From: Moorena sp. SS36440bin_2
GTDB taxonomy: Bacteria; Cyanobacteriota; Cyanobacteriia; Cyanobacteriales; Coleofasciculaceae
Direction of reading: 5' to 3'
DNA: 64,000 nt
NCBI GenBank assembly: GCA_011524395.1
Contig: WTKN01000389.1
Location: forward strand, 1 to 64,000
Every line of letters begins with the position of its first letter. The first letter of the stretch is position 1. The position numbers were made by a program, and so were the translations under genes. Below the pieces are notes generated by a model. That model worked only from the letters and a program-made list of their open reading frames with translations, did no database searches and was not told the DNA's origin. This document shows, piece by piece, positions 331 through 59,258 of this stretch.

Positions 331-3300
331 CTATTTTGATTTGGGTTTAATGCCATCACAAAGAGTGCGATCGCTTTGATCGATTGCAGAATTATACTTT
401 AGATAATCCCCTACCCAATCACAAGCCCGACCGAGAAGGTCATTGAAATCTAAACTTATATCCATATCCCACATAATCACATTGCCACTGGAGTCAGATG
501 AAGCCAGCATTTTGCCATCGGGACTGAAACTGAGGCTAAAAACCCCTTCATTATGTCCAATCAGAGTTTCAATTTCTTGCCCCTTCAAATTCCAGAGTTT
601 AACCGTTTTGTCACCACTAGCCGAAGCAATCATCTTGCCATCTGGGCTGAAACTGACGCTAAACACCTTACCCTCATGCCCTTTGAGAGTTCGGATTTCT
701 TTACCGTCTCTACTCCAAAGTTTAACCGTTTCGTCTTCACTACCAGAGACAAGCATCTGACTGTCGGGACTAAAACTGACACTCCAGATTACATCATCAT
801 GACCTTTGAGGATGGTAGGAGTTAAGCAAAAAGGCAAAAAATTTGTGTTATGGTCTGATTCAACTGCAGGTTTTAAGTTTGCAGGTTTTAAGTTTGCAGG
901 TTTTAATTCACCATTACATAAGTTTCCGCGACTCCAAAGCTTAATAGTATTATCATCACTACCAGCAGCAATCATCAGACCATCGGGACTAAAATTAACA
1001 CTTCTAAGCGCAGCCCTAAGCTTTTGAAACCTTTGGGGTTCTCTTCCTTTAAAACTCCAAAGCTTGACAGCGTTATCCCAACTGCCAGATACAATAGTCT
1101 GACTGTCAGGGCTGAAACTAACGCTAAAGACTCCAGCCTGATGCCCCTGGAGTGTTTGGATTTTTTTACCATCCTTATTCCAAAGTCTAACCCTACTATC
1201 CCGGCTACCCGTAGCAATAGTTTTACCATCGGGGCTAAAACTCACACTAAACACTACATCCCTGTGGTTTTCTAGAACGTTTGGGGTCAAACAAAAATCC
1301 AGCACATTGATAGTTTGACTAGAGCTTCTCTCCCCTAATCCTTCCTTGCCACAGGTATAATCTAAATGCCATAGCTTAGCAGTTTTATCTTCACTAGCAG
1401 TAGCCAAAGTTTTGCCATCTGGGCTAAAACTCACACTCCAGACATTACTCCTATGACCCTTGAAGGTGTGAGGTGTTTTCGCATCTAAGCGCCAGAGTTT
1501 AATCGTTTTATCTTCACTAGCACTAGCCAGGGTCCTGCCATCTGGGCTAAAGCTAAGGTCATAAGCTCCAGCCTGATGCCCTCGGAAGGTTTGGAGTTCC
1601 GAGCCATCAAGGCTCCAGAGTTTAACGGTTTTATCCCGACTAGCAGAGGCGAGGGTTTTGCCATCCGGGCTGAACCTGACGCTTCTGACTGCACTGAATT
1701 GCTTTGGAAAAGTCTTCAGTTCCCGACCATTAAGGCTCCAGAGTTTGATAGTCTTATCCTCACTAGCAGAAGCAATCATCTTGCCTTGGGGTGAGAAACT
1801 GACGCTATAAACCTCAGCCTCATGCCCCTTGAACGTTGCAATACTTGTCCCATCCAGCTGCCAGAGCTTGATAGTATTGTTACTTCCAGCAGAAGCCAGA
1901 ATTTTGCCATCCGGACTAAAGCTGATACTGCGATATCCAGCCGCAATACCCTCAAAGGTTTGGAGTTGCTTGCCATTGAGGCTCCACAGCTTGACAGTAT
2001 TATCATTACTAGCCGTAGCCAGCATCCTGCCATCGGGACTGAAACTGACGCTGCGCACTCCACGCTTATGTCCTTTAAAGGTTTGGAGATTTTTTCCGTC
2101 TAAGTTCCACAGTTTGACCGTCTTATCCTCACTAGCTGTAGCAATAGTCTTGCCATCTGGGCTGAAACTAATATTCCAAACGGTACCGTTATGTCCCTTC
2201 AAGGTTTTGAGTGCCTTACCGTTGCGGCTCCAAAGTTTGACAGTATGGTCTTTACTAGCAGAGGCAATCAGATTACCGTCAGGGCTAAAACTAACACTAG
2301 TAACCCAACTGTTATGGCCTACCAAACGGTTGTATTCTTTAACCCAAGACACTGCTCCATGCAATGCTGTCCTAACCAGAGCCTCAGTTTCAGGTTTTAC
2401 ACTGCGTATCTGTTTTTGCAGTTCCCGTGCAGCCCTGATTGCTTCGATCAGGGCATCAAATTCTTGATGTGATTTTCTCAGAGCCAGTGAATCTCGACTC
2501 AGAGCATTAATGTGAACTTCCCTAACCGTTTCTGCTCGTTTCCATTGCATGAAAGCAACCAAGCCAAAGCCAACAGCTGCTCCAAATGCTGCACTCATCA
2601 AACTAAGGGACAACCGTAAGATGACTAATCGACGCTTGTCCCGTTTTCTCAAAATCGATATGGCATCCCGACTTTTAGCAATATATTCCTTGTGTAAAGG
2701 TGTCGCAGTCGGCTGTTTATCATTGGTCTCGGCATCAAGCAACCATTGTTGGGCAATAGAAAATTCGCTGCCACGCAACAGCAAATCTGTATCTTGGTGA
2801 GACTGCTGCCATTCCCTAGCTCGCTGCAACCATTTAGTGTGACTGCGCACATGCTCTCGGTCAGTATCAAGGGTTCTGACCAATTCACTGAAATTGGGAT
2901 AAAAATCTCCTCGATGCCGGTTGAAATCAATCCACTGGATGCTAGCTAATCCAGGATGTAGCATTTTTGCTGGTACCTGTGTAGAAAGCACAGTCACAAA
3001 CCGTTTATTTAATGTCTGAGCATAGTCTACCTCCCCAGCACAGTAGCGTGAATTTACCGAAGCAGGGGAAATAATAAATAAGAAATTATCAGAATGTTCA
3101 ATTCCACGATAGATTTCCTCTTGAAAATCACTGCCCGGAGGAATACTTTCTTGGTCAAACCAAGTCGTTTTACCCTGTAACTGCAATGCCTCATTTAACT
3201 TCCTAGCCAAATCTGAATCAGTACGAGAATAAGAAATAAAAACGTCTAGATAAGATTCCGTTGGTTGATTCGTGCTAGCAGCAATAAATTCTTGATGTAA

Positions 3301-4476
3301 CTCTAGGGGTGGATGTTCCAGGCGTTGGCGATTTACGTTCAGCCAGTTTTCGTAATAGTTTAAATTGTGACCCCGCAATAAAATGCTAGAATTGCGGTTT
3401 TGGGTCAGCCATTTTAGCGCTTTGACTAACAAAAGCTTATGCTCTTCGTAATAGAGAGCATCTTGATTTAATTCTTTTAATAATTGAGCAGCCATGAAGC
3501 GGTAGTTTGCTTCATGGTTAGACTTAGTAAAATCCAGGAATTGTAATGAACTAATTTTTGGTGGGATTTGGTCTATATCCGTGTATTCAACCAGTAAGGA
3601 TATAATACGTTTATTGTGAGCAAAAGCGTGTTCAAGCTCTTGGTGACAGTATTTTGATTGAATCGAATTGGGTGAAATTAAGTAAATGAGATTATCAGCT
3701 TCCTCGATTCCTTGGTTGATTGCCGCTTGGAAGTCTATACCGGTTTTAATATCCGTTTCAAGTTTCCAGATTGTGATTCCTTCCCGCATCAGGGTTTTGC
3801 CAAGTTTATCCTTTATATCTTGATCTTTATCAGAATAAGATATAAACACTTGGGTCATTAAATTATTTGCATTTTTGGTGCTTTCACAAATAAAATCACA
3901 ATGTAAATCCGTTGGAACACAAGGAGCCTGCTCTTTTTTAAACCGCACCTTTAACCAAGATTCAGCTTGAATCCGTTCTGATTGGATTAACAGGTGGTTA
4001 GTTTGTTGTTGATTTCTGTCCCACTCCAAAGCTTTAACTAAAAACCGAGTATGCTGTTCTACATAATCAGCATGCTTACGGATCGAATTCATTAATTGTT
4101 TAAAGGACTCTTCAAAATCGTTGATTTTATCTTGGAAATAGATCCAGTTCAGTTTACGGATAATCGTAGGAATTTTCTCCCGAGGAGATTTAACATGCAC
4201 TAAAGGAATAATGCGTTTATTGTATTTAATAGCCAGTTCAATTTCTTTGAGGCAGTATTTTGAATTAACGGCATGGGGGGAAATGATAAAAATGAAGTTA
4301 TGAGTTCTCTCAATGCCATTATCAATCTGATGCTGCCAATCGACAGCAGGCGGAATGTCCTTCTGGTCAAACCAGACCGTTAAGCCAAATTGTGTTAATC
4401 TAGCTTCAAGTTTAGTAGCAAAGGCTTTGCTGTCAGCACGTCCGTAGGAGATGAAGGCATCGAAAAATGTAGTCAT
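331..4476 (-). CDS. Triple-TIR domain / single-TM / WD40-repeat protein (1381 aa)
   Basis: Three TIR blocks ([66 protein letters not shown]), hydrophobic segment [22 protein letters not shown], then 14 countable WD40 repeats ([21 protein letters not shown]). Confidence 0.95.
   Translation of the reverse strand: [1381 protein letters not shown]
869..910. repeat. 15-bp tandem repeat GGTTTTAAGTTTGCA (2 full copies plus a partial third) inside the WD40 coding region
   Basis: Encodes [14 protein letters not shown] in a linker between two WD40 repeats. Confidence 0.9.
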
Positions 4477-4584
4477 TTGTCCAGGGGTTTAGGTGAGGAG
4501 ATCTACTTAAGACTACACTTGTAACACCCCGGATTTCGTAAATCGAGCAAGTTTGAAGAATTTTCAGAAATAAATAAGGGCAAC

Positions 4585-4724
4585 GGGTGCATCTCATCTT
4601 TGTAAAAAAGAAGGGAAGTGCCGGAAGTGTCTGAAGCGTGGGGATTTTAGGGAGAGTGGGTAGTGTAGGTAGTGTCGGAATTTTATTAGAATTTTTGTCG
4701 AATTGCATGCATTGAGATGCACCC
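4585..4724. mobile_element. MITE-like non-autonomous element, 140 bp
   Basis: Perfect 12-bp terminal inverted repeats GGGTGCATCTCA (4585-4596) / TGAGATGCACCC (4713-4724), flanked by perfect 8-bp direct repeats AGGGCAAC (4577-4584 and 4725-4732). Confidence 0.85.
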
Positions 4725-4729
4725 AGGGC

Positions 4730-4762
4730 AACGGATGGGTAACGGATGGGTAACGGATGGGT
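4730..4762. repeat. 11-bp tandem repeat AACGGATGGGT x3
   Basis: Three perfect consecutive copies, overlapping the right target duplication of the MITE-like element. Confidence 0.9.
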
Positions 4763-4877
4763 AACAGGTGAACAATGGTGAGGATGTAGGTCTCACCTCT
4801 GGTGCTCTGCCCATAGCCTCAATGACTACCACAATAAAGCTAGTCTGTCAAGCCAGTAAATAATATTATAAATGATC

Positions 4878-5951
4878 TCATTTAGTATCGACTTTCTTAG
4901 ACGGAGACGGGTTTGTTCCCTTATCCTCCGACTGCTCGGTTTCACCATAGAGTTCTGCTAGTGCATCATTCATCTCTTGCACCCAACCTACATTTTCGCT
5001 TTGGATGGTTCTCTCTGTACTAATCACCAATAACTCAAATTTCTCCAATTTTTCCTCGTCTGAGAGACCATGCCACCAAGTGCTTATATCGTACAAATCA
5101 TCAGCTGCCTGGTTGTAAGCAATCAGCGTTGTCTCAACCCGTTTCAATTCCAGGAAACTAGAAAATGCCGCAGCTAAGGCTGTAGTGACCGCCACCGAGG
5201 TGTCTTGACCCAGCGCTACCAGAAATGAACCCACACCGCCTAAGATATATACCCCCCACTGGTAGCCATGCAATTGTATGTCAAGTTTCCTAGTTCGCTT
5301 TCGGTACCACTTAAACTGGTCTTCCACTCGCCAGACTAGGTAGTGTTCGGGGATGAGGTCAGAAAACTTATCGTCTTGATGATGCTGTTGAGCTTCCTGA
5401 TGTTTCTTGTCCTTGCTTGTCTTATCTTTGCTTAGTGATGAGCGTTTTCTTCGGGAAACTTCCCCCTCATAGGGGCTAAAACTAGTGTGGTGAACTGTGG
5501 TTCCCTTTAGCCTTTGACTAATCACCTTGACCTTGCGTGCCAGCTTAGCATCCCGCGAGGTGTTATCACTGTATTCCCCAACTTGGGCACGGTAACAGTA
5601 AATTTCCCTTTTAATTGCCTCGGCACTACCCCGTAACAGAATCCAATTGCCACCTTTGTCGAACTTAACTGCACCTGCTAGTAGTACACTTAGAGCAATT
5701 GGCACTAGTAGAAGAATGTAGTGAATCACTTTGACCGTCTGGTGTGAATCACCAAGGACGTCTACCAACTCTGAGTGGACCACAGCTAGCAAGGTAGCCA
5801 ACACACTCAATACCAGAATTCCGATCCGCAGCAAAAAGAAACGTTTCTGAGCCGCTGTGGCATTTTTGCTATAGGTACGCTGACGTTCCCAAGCACGTTT
5901 GAGGGTTGGGTTTGGCCCAGGGGAGTATGTAGGCTCAACTTCTGACGTCAT
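4878..5951 (-). CDS. SLATT/DUF4231-type membrane protein, apparently two SLATT units (about 4 TM)
   Basis: N-terminal hydrophobic pair RFFLLRIGILVLSVLATLLAVV / IHYILLLVPIALSVLLAGA followed by GGNWILLRGSAEAIKREIYCYRAQ, then a second pair YQWGVYILGGVGSFLVAL / VAVTTALAAAFSSFLELKRVETTLIAYNQAADDLYDISTWWHGLS, separated by a charged linker. Confidence 0.75.
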   Translation of the reverse strand: MTSEVEPTYSPGPNPTLKRAWERQRTYSKNATAAQKRFFLLRIGILVLSVLATLLAVVHSELVDVLGDSHQTVKVIHYILLLVPIALSVLLAGAVKFDKGGNWILLRGSAEAIKREIYCYRAQVGEYSDNTSRDAKLARKVKVISQRLKGTTVHHTSFSPYEGEVSRRKRSSLSKDKTSKDKKHQEAQQHHQDDKFSDLIPEHYLVWRVEDQFKWYRKRTRKLDIQLHGYQWGVYILGGVGSFLVALGQDTSVAVTTALAAAFSSFLELKRVETTLIAYNQAADDLYDISTWWHGLSDEEKLEKFELLVISTERTIQSENVGWVQEMNDALAELYGETEQSEDKGTNPSPSKKVDTK

Positions 5952-5968
5952 GACAGTCTATGTGTAGT

Positions 5969-6928
5969 TTATGTACTTTTTAATGTGTACATTGACTGTC
6001 TCGTCAGTCCCTCCATGAGGATTTTAGTCAATTCACTGAATGGTTGTGAGAGGTCGTAACAGGTCAAATTATTTTGTTGCAAGTGATTTGGTTGTAATAG
6101 TTCCGTAACAGATTCTCGTGCTTCTTGTTCTGGATAGCGTACTGCCATCGTAATTTCATCTGCCAACCGACCACTGCCCCCAAGAACTACCAATGGTCGT
6201 CCAGCTTTCTTGTTTTCAAATAAATCTACCAAGGTAATCGCCCCACCGTTAGCCATTACTGTCACTGATGGCTTTTCGTGTGCCAGGATAGTAGCTATAC
6301 GAGCCAACCAGGGTGATTCATCACCCCAGGTAGACCCAGGAATCAGCACAAAATGAGTATGATTTGGCTCCAGTGATGTTTGATCAGAAGATGAGGGGGG
6401 TGCATCAGGAAGCGCAATCTTGCCTACTGGGGCAATACCTACTAAGGGAAAGGTGCCAGCAATCTCAGCACGAGCTTGCCCCATCATCTGCATCACCCCA
6501 GTATCAGTACCACCATCCACCACACAGGCTCCTAGGGTTTCAGCAATGGGAGCTAGTACATTGACAAACAACAAGCGCAGACGAGCCATACTCTGATCAC
6601 TCATCTTGCTTGCCCCCCCGACTACCACTAGAACGGGACGGGAGCCGTGAAGACCGATTTGGTTTAGGGCAGCAGACAAGTCCACAGAATGATCCACTTG
6701 AATAGCACAAGCCCCTTGCCCATTCTTGAAGGTGAGTTTGAGAGGCTGGTTATTTAAGAACGGCTTGAAGAGGAGATGGTTTGGCTTGTTTCCATCCTGG
6801 GACAAAGCACCGGACTTCGCTAAAACCCTCCTCTTGCGCAATCGGAGGGGAGTGATGCCTGCGCATCTAGCCATTAATACCTTTTGGTCATTTGTTCGCT
6901 TTTGCTTTGTCTTGGCAGATCGAAACAT
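5969..6928 (-). CDS. SLOG superfamily protein, LSDAT (TRPM-like) prokaryotic type
   Basis: Rossmannoid core PVLVVVGGASKMSDQSMARLRLLFVNVLAPIAETLGACVVDGGTDTGVMQMMGQAR... and HFVLIPGSTWGDESPWLARIATILAHEKPSVTVMANGG; GGTDTG motif; start 17 bp upstream of the SLATT gene. Confidence 0.75.
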   Translation of the reverse strand: MFRSAKTKQKRTNDQKVLMARCAGITPLRLRKRRVLAKSGALSQDGNKPNHLLFKPFLNNQPLKLTFKNGQGACAIQVDHSVDLSAALNQIGLHGSRPVLVVVGGASKMSDQSMARLRLLFVNVLAPIAETLGACVVDGGTDTGVMQMMGQARAEIAGTFPLVGIAPVGKIALPDAPPSSSDQTSLEPNHTHFVLIPGSTWGDESPWLARIATILAHEKPSVTVMANGGAITLVDLFENKKAGRPLVVLGGSGRLADEITMAVRYPEQEARESVTELLQPNHLQQNNLTCYDLSQPFSELTKILMEGLTRQSMYTLKST

Positions 6929-6965: not shown

Positions 6966-7733
6966 CTAGATCATGCTCAGGGACATCAGCTGATCAGACA
7001 TCTCGAAATTGGCGGTGACATTTTGTACATCCTCCAAGTCTTCCAGAGCATCCATTAATTTTAAAAGCGTCCGCGCCAGATCTGAGTCAGTCACTTCCAC
7101 CGTATTATTAGGAATCCAGCGCAACTGCGCCTCACTGACCTCAAAGCCCTGATTTTTCAAAATTTGACTGAGGTTTTCCAGGTTGCTAACTTCTGTAAAT
7201 ACCTCAGCGGTTACAGCTTCGGAATCCTCGTTCAACTCATAAGTTTGAGCTCCCCCTTCAAGGGATGCTTCTAACAAATGGTCTTCTGTGATATCACCTG
7301 TAAGCGTAACGACACCCTTTTGTTCAAACATCCAGCTAACACAGCCTGTTTCACCCAGATTACCACCATTCTTAGTAAATCCTGAGCGCAGGTCAGCTGC
7401 TGTCCGATTCCGATTATCAGTAAAAGCTTCTATCAAGATCGCAACGCCTCCTGGACCATACCCCTCATAGCGAATCTCTTCAAGATTGTCACTCTCATTG
7501 CCTAGGGTACCGGCTCCTTTTGCGATCGCTCTTTCAATGTTGTCATTGGGAATCCCTGCTGCCTTAGCCTTTTCCACCGCTTGCCGCAGCTGAAAATTAC
7601 CCTCTGGATCCGGGATGCCATTGCGAGCAGCTACTATAATCTCCCGAGAGATTTTAGCAAAGGTCTTACCTTTAACTGCGTCAACCCTCGCTTTCTGACG
7701 CTTAATATTTGCCCATTTACTATGTCCTGCCAT
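6966..7733 (-). CDS. yebC: YebC/PmpR family protein
   Basis: MAGHSKWANIKRQKARVDAVKGKTFAKISREIIVAARNG... diagnostic N-terminus. Confidence 0.97.
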   Translation of the reverse strand: MAGHSKWANIKRQKARVDAVKGKTFAKISREIIVAARNGIPDPEGNFQLRQAVEKAKAAGIPNDNIERAIAKGAGTLGNESDNLEEIRYEGYGPGGVAILIEAFTDNRNRTAADLRSGFTKNGGNLGETGCVSWMFEQKGVVTLTGDITEDHLLEASLEGGAQTYELNEDSEAVTAEVFTEVSNLENLSQILKNQGFEVSEAQLRWIPNNTVEVTDSDLARTLLKLMDALEDLEDVQNVTANFEMSDQLMSLSMI

Positions 7734-24563: not shown

Positions 24564-25876
24564 TTACGGCGCGGGCTTCTTAACCTCACGATTAAGAGTT
24601 TCTGCGTAGCACTTATCTAGGTACAAAACCCCCGACAGTACGCTATCAGCAGACAGTTTCCTTTCCCCAATTGTCCTTGGGTACTTATTGATTCCACGAT
24701 TACGCATTACTTCGGCTGAAGCGACATCTCTATTGTTGGAATACCCGCATTCATCACAGGTATGCCAACGGATTGAGAGGTTATTATCCCACTCGGTTCC
24801 ACATTCAGGACATTGCTTTGATGTCCCTTTATGGTCAACTTCTGCGAAAAACTTTCCTCGTTTCCAACATACCCATTTCAATAATTCTCTGAACTGACCA
24901 AAGCCAGCATCAAGAGAATGCTTACCCAGAAAGCCCTTTGCCATTACTCTGTAATCAATGTCTTCTACAAAAATTGAATCAGCCTGGTCACAGAGTTGAT
25001 GTGCAACTAAAGAGTGAAAATCTTTACGGGTATTACCAATTTGGTGATGTAACCGTGCTACCTTGATTTGTGCTTTTTCGTAATTCTTAGACCGTTTCTT
25101 TTTTCGAGATGCTCTACGTTGCAGCAACTCGCGCGTTCCCTAGCGCCGTGCGACGGCGCGGGGTCGCTCGTCAATTTCAGCTCGCGTTGTAGGTCTATGA
25201 AAAACCTCGGTCTAGGAATCGTTAAATTATCTGATGTAGCTAGGAAATCAATCAACCCGACATCTACTCCGATTGCTCGTCCAAAAGCCTGGTTTTCCGG
25301 AACAGAAACATCAGCTTTAATGGTGATAACAACAAACCATTTTGTTCCTCGACATCTTGATACAACTCGTACAGTCTTGATTTGAAATCCTTCAGGAATT
25401 TCTCGATGTAATCTCAGATCTACAAGCCCAATCTTGGGTAGTTTGATTTGATCCCCCTTAATTGGATTAGTCGCAAACTGAGGAAACAAAAACGATTGAT
25501 AGCGACCGTACTTTTTAAATCGTGGAAAACCTTTTCCTCTTTGTCTGAACGACTCCCAAGAAGTATGTAATCGCTTAATGACATCTTGAGTGACTTGAGA
25601 GTGAACTTCTTTCAAGTCAGATTCAGTCTTTTTCCATTGCGTTAACTGTCGCTTCTGTGACCTGTATCCGGGGAATGGAATGTCAGGCGACATGATATAT
25701 TCCCTATTAAGCGAGCACCGATCAACTGCACACTTCCGACTATTCATCCAGTCCTTTAAGTCTCGCAGGCAACGGTTATAAAGTCGTCGGCAAGTTTCTA
25801 GCCAACTCAACATTAATTCCTGTTGAGCTGTATCTGGATAAATTCGATAAGTGTAGTTCATGATTAGTGCCATCAA
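24564..25876 (-). pseudogene. tnpB: TnpB (RNA-guided endonuclease family), frameshifted by a 47-nt insertion
   Basis: N-terminal part 25058..25876 (MNYTYRIYPDTAQQELMLSWLETCRRLYN...IGVDVGLIDFLATSDN) and C-terminal part 24564..25127 (RRASRKKKRSKNYEKAQIKVARLHHQI...CPECGTEWDNNLSIRWHTCDECGYSNNRDVASAEVMRNRGI) are in different frames; junction carries a foreign GC-rich palindrome. Confidence 0.92.
25128..25174. repeat. 47-nt GC-rich palindrome-bearing insertion within tnpB
   Basis: CTCGCGCGTTCCCTAGCGCCGTGCGACGGCGCGGGGTCGCTCGTCAA; perfect hairpin GCGCCGT-GCG-ACGGCGC (25143-25159); removing it restores K-L-L-Q-R-R continuity of TnpB. Confidence 0.8.
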
Positions 25877-47444: not shown

Positions 47445-48651
47445 ATGATCATATTAGAGTTTAAAGCCAAAGGGAAAAAGTCTCAATATTCAGCTATAGA
47501 TGAGGCTATCCGGACAGTTAAGTTCATCAGGAATAGCTGCATTCGTTTGTGGTTAGACAATAAAGGGACTTCGAAAAGTGACCTTAGTAGGTATTCTAAA
47601 ATTCTTGCCAAGGAATTCCCTTTTGCCAATGAACTAAACTCTACTGCCCGTCAGGCTGCATCCGAGAGGGCATGGTCATCGATTGTTCGCTTCTATAGAT
47701 AACTGCAAGAAAAAAGTCTCAGGTAAAAAGGGTTTTCCTAAATTCCAGAAACGTGCTCGCTCTCTCGAATACAAGAAGTCAGGATGGAAATTATCCCCTG
47801 ACAAGAAATCGATAACGTTTACGGACAAGAAGGGAATCGGAAAGCTCAAACTCAAGGGTACATGGGACTTATGGCGTTTTGATAAGAAACAAATTAACCG
47901 GGTTCGGATAGTCAAGCGGGCTGACGGGTACTACATTCAATTCTGTGTTGCTGTTAGCGCGAAAGAGGAAATAGGTTCGACAGGTAAGACTATTGGCCTG
48001 GATGTAGGACTCAAAGAGTTTTATACAGATTCTGATGGTCATTCTCAACCCAATCCTCGATTTTATCGCAAAGGAGAAAAGCAATTAAAGTTTCATCAAC
48101 GCCGGGTTTCCCGGAAAAAGAAAGGCTCTTCCAACCGAAAGAAAGCAGTTAATAGATTAGGCAGGCAGCACCTTAAAATAAGTAGGCAGCGTGAGGAACA
48201 TGCAAAGAGACTTGCACGTTGCGTAATCCGTTCGCGTAGCGTCGGCTTCGCCGAATCTAACGATTTGGTCGCCTACGAAGACTTAAGGGTTAAGAATCTG
48301 GTTAAAAACCACTGTCTTGCCAAGTCCATCAATGATGCAGGTTGGTATCAATTCAGGAAATGGTTGGAGCACTTTGGGACTAAATTCGGTCGGATAACTG
48401 TTGCAGTAAATCCCGCCTATACCAGTCAAAACTGCTCCGATTGTGGCGAAGTCGTAAAGAAATCCCTATCAACTCGAACTCATACCTGTAAGTGTGGATG
48501 CGAGCTTGATAGAGATCATAATGCCGCCATCAATATCCGAAATAGAGCTATAAGTACGACGGGGCACGTCGGAACTTGGGTTGTAAACCCGAACGCTTCA
48601 GGAGATTTGGCCTCTACTCTTTCTGGTTCCGGCCTGAAAGAGCCACGCTGA
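47445..48651 (+). pseudogene. tnpB: TnpB (RNA-guided endonuclease family), interrupted by a 1-nt frameshift
   Basis: 47445..47702 (MIILEFKAKGKKSQYSAIDEAIRTVKFIRNSCIRLWLDN...) and 47683..48651 (..NCKKKVSGKKGFPKFQKRARSLEYKKSGW...GLDVGLKEFYTDSDG...SQNCSDCGEVVKKSLSTRTHTCKCGCELDRDHNAAINIRNRAI) are one protein across a frameshift near ttctatAgataac (about 47696-47698). Confidence 0.9.
48234..48257. repeat. 24-nt in-frame micro-palindrome insertion in tnpB
   Basis: CGTT[CGCGTAGCGTCGGCTTCGCCGAAT]CTAAC; hairpin TCGGC-TTC-GCCGA; encodes RSVGFAES inside the usual VxRSNDLVAYEDL motif. Confidence 0.75.
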
Positions 48652-57809: not shown

Positions 57810-59258
57810 TCAGATATTTGTTGATCGTTGGGTTGACATCTCCCCCGGCTGAAGCACGGGGGATTCTACAAGGTTGCGAAACAGCACGGGTAAACCCGTG
57901 CTGTTTCGCAACCTTGTTCGGTATGATTTTTTTAGAGAGTTAAAAAGATCGTACCGATGTGGGAGTGTCAAACTCCCGCTACCCACCTTGGTCAAGTCAA
58001 GACCTAACTGTGTGGCTACTTTTTTGGCTATATTTGCGGCACCGTTACAATCCGCATTCACCAAATATCCAAAAGAAGTTTTGTATAACCCGCGTCTTAC
58101 TCTTTTACCTGAGGGTTTCCATCCACTGGTTTTTTCGCCGTGTCTAGGTAATGAATCCTCATCCAGAAAAGACGCCTTACTGCTATAAGCTTCTTCAGTT
58201 ACTGTTAGTTTGATTCCATATTCTGGGCAGAGTTGCTTTAATCTTTCGATTAGCCTTTTAGTGGGAATGACTACAAAATTTTGATTCCCTCGTCTCCCTA
58301 TATTTATTGAATCTTTTTGGCGTTCATTCCACCCAATGATAATATTTCCGATACGATCACTAAGACAACGATTAATAATAAATCGAGCAGCCTTATTGAT
58401 TGCATCCCGCATCTGGTTGTTGCGCTTCCTTTGTACCCGATCAAGGTTGCTGTCCCAATAGGATTCAGGCTTCCCAGTCTTGTACTTAGCAACCAGACGA
58501 GCATACCCCTGATTCATTGATTTAAGTTTCCGGCCATCAATAATCAAGCTTTTCCCATGAGTTGAAACTCCAGTTAGCCAGTTATCGCCACCATGGTCAA
58601 AGCTCCATGCTTGAGAGTAATTAAGGTTTGGGTTATCCTTTACTGCTTGTTTCCCATCATCTATTACCCAATCGATCCATAGTTGCCCTAGATATGGGCG
58701 AACAGTCACTTCTTTAACCCAGTCTGGATCGATGAAAGCCGGTGGCTCTAGTGTTATCTTACAAAGTAGTTCAGGCTTAGATTCTTTGCTAACCGATGGA
58801 TAGAACAGCCCTTTTTTGTAAGTAAGAGCTTGCTTTGGAAAAGTAACAGCAGCTAATCCACCTTTTTTGCGATACCTAGGAAGTCTTGGTCTGTCAACTT
58901 CGCCTTTGTAATACTTTTCAACTAGTTGATTATAGCTAGTCAGGGATTCTCCTACAGACTTCAACGTTTGTTGAGCTGATTGAGCAGCCATAGCCTTGTA
59001 GTGAGGACTCGACTTAAGGGCTTTGTCCAACTCGGGATACTTGACTGCACACTTGTAAGTCTTCCAGCCGAATTTGAGTACGTCGTCACGCCAGTAGGTA
59101 GTATAAGCTTCAGTTTGTTCACGCAACCATTCATAATGCTTCCTCTTTGCATAATATATAGCGCAGTTTATTAAGTTGTTAGCCTGTTGACATTGAAATT
59201 GCCAGAAAGCTTTTTCTTCCTCTGAAAACGTAGATTTTATCGGAATCGTTTTATACAT
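57810..59258 (-). CDS. TnpB-like IS200/IS605-family protein lacking the C-terminal zinc ribbon
   Basis: AWSFDHGGDNWLTGVSTHGKSLIIDGRKLK, IGNIIIGWNERQKDSINIGRRGNQNFVVIPTKRLIERLKQLCPEYGIKLTVTEEAYSSKASFLD, LVNADCNGAANIAKKV: RuvC-like D/E/D motifs, no CxxC pair between the E and last D motifs. Confidence 0.88.
   Translation of the reverse strand: MYKTIPIKSTFSEEEKAFWQFQCQQANNLINCAIYYAKRKHYEWLREQTEAYTTYWRDDVLKFGWKTYKCAVKYPELDKALKSSPHYKAMAAQSAQQTLKSVGESLTSYNQLVEKYYKGEVDRPRLPRYRKKGGLAAVTFPKQALTYKKGLFYPSVSKESKPELLCKITLEPPAFIDPDWVKEVTVRPYLGQLWIDWVIDDGKQAVKDNPNLNYSQAWSFDHGGDNWLTGVSTHGKSLIIDGRKLKSMNQGYARLVAKYKTGKPESYWDSNLDRVQRKRNNQMRDAINKAARFIINRCLSDRIGNIIIGWNERQKDSINIGRRGNQNFVVIPTKRLIERLKQLCPEYGIKLTVTEEAYSSKASFLDEDSLPRHGEKTSGWKPSGKRVRRGLYKTSFGYLVNADCNGAANIAKKVATQLGLDLTKVGSGSLTLPHRYDLFNSLKKSYRTRLRNSTGLPVLFRNLVESPVLQPGEMSTQRSTNI
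57868..57917. repeat. Perfect 23-bp palindrome with 4-nt loop
   Basis: ACAAGGTTGCGAAACAGCACGGG-TAAA-CCCGTGCTGTTTCGCAACCTTGT. Confidence 0.97.

Follow-up and report, generated by a model that had tools for sequence, protein, structure and literature searches.

A conserved LSDAT-SLATT gene pair with an optional TIR-WD40 partner: a candidate TIR/SLOG-signalled membrane module in Moorena

The window (the whole stretch of DNA analysed here, 64,000 nucleotides from the filamentous marine cyanobacterium Moorena) begins at a contig end, and its first three minus-strand genes encode, in transcription order, an LSDAT-type SLOG protein homologous to TRPM MHR1/2 and predicted to be a nucleotide sensor (5969-6928, 319 aa), a tandem-SLATT protein predicted to be a membrane effector (4878-5951, 357 aa) and a TIRx3-TM-WD40 protein predicted to be a signal-making transmembrane receptor (331-4476, 1381 aa). 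From comparative sequence data we judge the LSDAT-SLATT pair to be real, conserved and functional, and a mechanism linking it to TIR signalling to be plausible. Our favoured reading, to which we give a probability of about one half, is a TIR/SLOG-signalled membrane module with an LSDAT-SLATT core that would respond to a TIR-made ADP-ribose-type signal. The original prediction had described these three consecutive ORFs with exact coordinates, and the domain identities that it proposed are confirmed by Pfam.

The LSDAT and SLATT genes are separated by 17 bp, as originally reported (5951/5969; gap 5952-5968, minus strand), a distance consistent with co-transcription. The spacer between the SLATT and TIR genes (4477-4877, 401 bp) contains short direct repeats. 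The corresponding distance in G064 is about 2.5 kb, the interval holding a lysine-2,3-aminomutase gene and one further ORF. This loose and variable spacing suggests that the TIR gene probably lies outside the tight LSDAT-SLATT operon. Short direct repeats flank the TIR-WD40 gene on both sides, at 250-320 (cttgcct units) and 4490-4860 (gggtaacggat units).

Directly upstream of LSDAT, after a gap of 37 bp, is a yebC-like gene (6966-7733, minus strand). Other Moorena share the yebC-LSDAT order, as does Symploca SIO2E9, in which neither SLATT nor TIR adjoins LSDAT; the yebC-like gene is therefore counted as a genomic neighbour outside the module. Together with a sigma factor and histidine kinases, yebC gives the locus flanks of housekeeping type. 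All four Moorena genomes retain the three module genes, which are under purifying selection (dN/dS 0.18-0.34); within the genus the constraint on yebC is tighter (0.08-0.13). At the N-terminus of the LSDAT ORF, ~58 residues (6755-6928) are weakly constrained (dN/dS ~0.65) and missing from other genera, so that the annotated start may be too early and the true start may lie further inside the ORF.

The conservation of the LSDAT-SLATT pair was assessed at two scales. Of 195 sampled genomes of the order, 34 have LSDAT homologues, 8 match the tandem-SLATT query and 69 contain DUF4231. Searching GTDB genomes with an LSDAT profile yielded 80 loci, every one of them cyanobacterial; in 52, LSDAT is directly followed by a SLATT/DUF4231 gene of the same orientation. 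The two genes mostly overlap or are 4-18 bp apart (≤20 bp in 41/52 loci); three gaps that were computed as large negative numbers correspond to overlapping genes. Moreover, LSDAT and two SLATT domains form one polypeptide on plasmids of Hymenobacter tibetensis (NZ_CP094670.1) and Ca. Chlorohelix (NZ_CP128403.1) (L099:9071-11233 and L100:8903-10855). The recurrence across loci rules out chance adjacency of LSDAT and SLATT. Direct same-strand neighbourhood and natural fusions together indicate that the two proteins very probably work as one functional unit, which is our firmest conclusion. A protein annotated as SUMF1/EgtB family, whose N-terminus matches TIR, is encoded 1.2 kb from the Chlorohelix fusion.

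Both repeats of the tandem-SLATT protein are recognised by Pfam: DUF4231 at residues 25-134 (genomic 5550-5879; E=7.8e-14, 52.4 against a cut-off of 24.7) and SLATT_1 at residues 204-323 (genomic 4983-5342; E=1.3e-25, 90.3 against 26.3), the latter also exceeding its NCBIfam cut-off (114.2 against 41). By hydropathy, the N-terminal repeat has two clear transmembrane segments (residues 40-58 and 79-97) and the signal of the C-terminal repeat stays under the threshold. Tandem SLATT also heads proteins of ~1080 aa, seen in G041 and G133 and at L077:11153-14419, L078:9701-12928 and L079:7121-10357. In one copy (G041; L077) Pfam finds TPR-S and a weak YspA-like SLOG match after the tandem SLATT; the proteins of L077 and L078 adjoin LSDAT and another DUF4231 gene.

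The LSDAT protein matches LSDAT_prok (PF18171) at residues 97-269 of 319 (genomic 6122-6640; E=1.3e-68, 230.6 bits against a Pfam gathering cut-off of 25.4). This SLOG is its sole Pfam domain, the TRP six-TM channel domain being absent. A profile search of the PDB returned TRPM2 as the best match (3e-24), and Foldseek with the AlphaFold model (pLDDT 83.9) ranked TRPM2 and TRPM4 first (7e-14). Since both searches return TRPM first, with TRPM2 MHR1/2 on top, LSDAT is homologous to TRPM MHR1/2 and its nearest solved relatives are the MHR1/2 of TRPM2. The original prediction had suggested structure comparison for all three proteins; by sequence and fold we found no relative of SLATT among the solved structures of the PDB, and its model is weak (pLDDT 68.6). 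A further match to LSDAT (TMt 0.74) is chain 6A of PDB 9nw3, a ciliary-tip protein of 346 residues named "cation channel family protein", which aligns along almost all of its own modelled part and so seems to be a SLOG domain of TRPM type that lacks a channel.

In human TRPM2, Y295 and the beta5-alpha3 loop clamp ADPR, R358 contacts the phosphates and R302 the adenosine ribose (PMC6759353). The HMMER alignment pairs Y295 of hsTRPM2 with W201 of the window LSDAT, R358 with R254 and R302 with L208. W201 and R254 are invariant across 51 LSDATs, i.e. the Arg is retained and the Tyr swapped for Trp, and so are G139, G140, T141, G144 and M146 of the DGGTDxGxM motif. Position 208 is Ile or Leu in nearly all LSDATs, and the residue equivalent to R304 is likewise unconserved; these two positions rule out full conservation of the TRPM2 ADPR pocket. 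Judged by these residues, the predicted LSDAT pocket keeps its phosphate-binding side and differs on its adenosine-ribose side, which would fit a ligand related but not identical to ADPR, for example a cyclic ADPR isomer. The residues also appear to resemble a ligand-binding site and not a known catalytic one. No LSDAT match was found among 50,697 phage records, which rules out a phage-borne LSDAT acting as counter-defence.

The 1381-aa protein carries three TIR_2 domains (E=1.2e-86; TIR1 4072-4464, TIR2 3460-3855, TIR3 2857-3246) and 14 WD40 repeats (460-2328), as identified by Pfam on the minus strand. A single transmembrane segment, predicted from hydropathy at residues 617-635 (2572-2628), separates TIR3 from the repeats. 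This arrangement and the net charge of +5 on the N-flank of the segment make a topology with TIR in the cytosol and the sensor outside likely. Each of the three domains has the motif Glu (E78, E280 and E482, within S-K/R-Y-C-x-x-E), and that of TIR1 aligns with the Glu of AbTIR structures. As AbTIR requires its catalytic Glu for activity (PMC10022894), cleavage of NAD+ by the three TIR domains is plausible.

We then consider how closely TIR is tied to LSDAT. Of the 34 LSDAT genomes, 13 have a TIR_2 gene no more than 5 kb from LSDAT; they represent 9 of 20 genera, for 0.56 genera expected (P=2.5e-10); without the genus of the window the count is 8/19 (P=3e-9). The expected value was derived from TIR counts and genome sizes, and the test is conservative because the TIR domain count is an upper bound for TIR genes. 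The recurrence of LSDAT, SLATT/DUF4231 and TIR in cyanobacterial neighbourhoods, for which the original prediction had proposed a search, is well above chance. Among the 80 GTDB loci the TIR genes cluster within 2.2 kb (13 lineages, versus 7 at 2.2-10 kb, P=4e-5) and are on the strand of LSDAT in 11/13 (P=0.01). The TIR label changes at least 13 times over a tree of 103 LSDATs, 9 of these changes being forced by well-supported (starred) branches. Thus the link has been gained or lost repeatedly, with at least 9-13 changes. Enrichment and tree rule out chance adjacency for TIR as well. In Oculatella (L110) the order LSDAT-SLATTx2-TIR is identical to that of the window, and in M. bouillonii (G147) the three TIR_2 matches of the genome all come from this one gene. 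Clustering in defence islands could yield proximity without shared function, but the tight order, the common strand and the housekeeping-type flanks make this less probable.

Most LSDAT-SLATT pairs nevertheless have no adjacent TIR gene. TIR_2 has no match at all in G136 and G171 (95% and 93% complete), although both have the pair; TIR is therefore ruled out as an obligatory partner. In Symploca SIO2E9 (G100), LSDAT lies beside yebC and SLATTx2-TIRx3-WD40 is on another contig. These cases suggest that LSDAT-SLATT can do something without TIR, which may be one of several input routes. Wide conservation of the pair without a nearby TIR gene, together with TIR-WD40 homologues lying always elsewhere, had originally been named as the sign of a fortuitous association: the former is what we observe and the latter is false. 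On the genomic evidence TIR appears as a genuine but optional partner of LSDAT-SLATT. Conversely, pairs of SLATT/DUF4231 and TIR without nearby LSDAT occur in G000 (C288), G049, G024, G187 and G100 (C326). The first is a second locus of the genome studied here, with a DUF4231-TIRx3WD40-DUF4231-TIRx3WD40 tandem (L082:3768-15456); at G049:C55 a tandem-SLATT gene is followed by a TIR-TPR gene (L083:6294-9145), and G049 has no LSDAT match.

Parts of the module are exchanged between loci. In five of them (L114, L126, L127, L135 and L152) LSDAT is directly followed by a patatin-like phospholipase (Pfam 2.6e-28 in L114) and then by TIRx3/4-WD40, so that, by domain assignment, another membrane-acting effector takes the place of SLATT; in L114 a DUF4231 gene nevertheless follows later in the locus. 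In three loci (L143, L146 and L181, two of them from Nostoc) the TIR protein near LSDAT carries, instead of WD40, CHASE2, an extracellular small-molecule receptor domain (PMC8195603).

In the mechanism that we propose, a stress or infection cue would act on the C-terminal sensor of the TIRx3-TM-WD40 protein (WD40, or CHASE2 in some relatives), and the TIR domains, clustered in threes, would cleave NAD+ and release ADPR or one of its cyclic isomers as the signal. This ADP-ribose-type molecule would bind to LSDAT, in a cleft corresponding to the MHR1/2 pocket of TRPM2, and LSDAT would switch on SLATT; the pair would consist of a nucleotide-binding switch in the cytosol and the membrane effector to which it is attached. 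SLATT would then open or disrupt the membrane, and the cell would be stopped or killed. NADase activity, ligand identity, gating, membrane damage and an anti-phage role are all inferred. The original prediction of a TIR signal passing through LSDAT to SLATT, with WD40 as sensor, gains from the recurrence of the trio above chance, the LSDAT-SLATT fusions, the domain swaps and the kinship with TRPM2 MHR1/2; it loses in that TIR is merely optional.

Other explanations must be weighed. It is conceivable, although we regard it as unlikely, that LSDAT-SLATT is self-contained and senses an endogenous nucleotide, e.g. ADP-ribose arising through turnover of NAD+ or under oxidative stress, and that the TIR-WD40 gene belongs to a separate system settled nearby, as defence genes cluster. 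The wide occurrence of the pair without TIR, G136 and G171 included, is what one would expect in this case, as are the variable spacing and order of TIR and the persistence of yebC-LSDAT in Symploca with neither SLATT nor TIR. Such a separate system does not readily account for an enrichment of TIR far over chance and repeated across the tree, nor for its concentration within 2.2 kb on the same strand; the flanks resemble housekeeping genes and not defence islands, and TIR-WD40 remains beside LSDAT even where patatin replaces SLATT. TIR domains are also capable of NAD+ depletion or scaffolding, and triple TIRs could self-assemble. They might then be toxic depleters or scaffolds and not signal makers, with LSDAT-SLATT responding to falling NAD+ or membrane stress; we hold this to be very improbable, since by itself it leaves unexplained why a dedicated nucleotide sensor with a TRPM2-like pocket should be the neighbour.

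The SLATT/DUF4231-TIR pairs without nearby LSDAT, and the TIR-SLATT neighbours of Firmicute phages presented in the accessible text of PMC9503650, could mean that the functional pair is SLATT with TIR-WD40, and LSDAT merely a modulator or a signal-removing enzyme. This is rather improbable: LSDAT is fused to tandem SLATT elsewhere, the immediate neighbour of SLATT is far more often LSDAT than TIR, and the LSDAT residues seem to fit a ligand-binding site better than a known catalytic one.

Burroughs et al. (2015) reportedly described nucleotide-centric conflict systems including LSDAT-SLATT pairs, and may already mention the trio. LSDAT owes its name to its kinship to TRPM MHR1/2 (PMC13143021). 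SLATT occurs with TIR in GTPase-centred systems (PMC7159879) and, in the accessible text of PMC9503650, is predicted to be a membrane effector regulated by ADPr derivatives, with TIR-SLATT neighbours in Firmicute phages. As far as these sources can be consulted (PMC13143021, PMC9503650, PMC7159879), the nucleotide-centric LSDAT-SLATT pairs comprise the same two families, LSDAT being the SLOG family of TRPM MHR1/2 and SLATT a predicted nucleotide-responsive pore former; what differs here is the statistical tie to TIR receptors with swappable sensors, the patatin swap and the mapping of the TRPM2 ADPR-pocket residues. The phage loci likewise place a TIR gene beside a 2TM SLATT gene, but the accessible text of PMC9503650 describes no LSDAT there, whereas our receptor is a triple TIR with WD40 or CHASE2. 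We found no paper pairing DUF4231 with TIR. Both pairings, LSDAT with SLATT and TIR with SLATT, had been predicted or known before; what is new, as far as the accessible literature shows, is the three-way module whose sensor and effector can be swapped.

The module also invites comparison with Thoeris, which combines TIR with SIR2-SLOG or TM-macro effectors (PMC11204291). In both, a TIR-made ADPR-type signal (proposed in our case) would switch on an effector with a nucleotide-binding domain, and one type of ThsA carries a SLOG domain, the other being a TM protein. Unlike in the ThsB (TIR) and ThsA pair, the sensor here, a SLOG of the LSDAT family, is a protein of its own and the effector is SLATT. 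Neither the LSDAT nor the SLATT protein has a SIR2 or macro match in Pfam or is matched by any PADLOC 2023 model; ThcB4 scores 108 bits for a cut-off of 220, and the matches of the PADLOC ThsB models are generic ones due to the TIR domain. Membership in Thoeris is ruled out by the missing SIR2/macro domain and the ThcB4 score; by domain content the module would work like Thoeris without being a member. In TRPM2 an ADPR/cADPR-type ligand is coupled to a membrane channel through the MHR1/2 to which LSDAT is homologous; the module differs in having neither TRP channel domain nor NUDT9-H and in encoding sensor and membrane part as separate genes (fused in Hymenobacter and Chlorohelix).

If the proposed mechanism is true, it adds a branch of TIR signalling whose sensor is homologous to the ADP-ribose switch of an animal ion channel, and SLATT, a predicted pore former for which we found no solved relative, gains a named trigger and a partner. 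The exchanges of SLATT for patatin and of WD40 for CHASE2 would then reflect a plug-in design, and the natural LSDAT-SLATT fusions would be ready targets for structural work on gating. We tentatively go further, at less than even odds: cyanobacteria, and Bacteroidota and Chloroflexota in the form of fusions, might carry a split TRPM2-like ADP-ribose-gated membrane effector: the ligand would come from a transmembrane TIR receptor and be bound by the MHR1/2 homologue LSDAT, and the membrane would be attacked by SLATT or by a patatin phospholipase in its stead. Ligand domain and membrane effector would in that case have been coupled before animal TRPM channels arose, and the origin of this coupling would lie in bacterial immunity.

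Elsewhere in the window, three ORFs were judged by eye to be TnpB-like transposases (24564-25876, 47683-48651 and 57810-59258); the one at 24564-25876 appears to be split by a frameshift into two overlapping ORFs.
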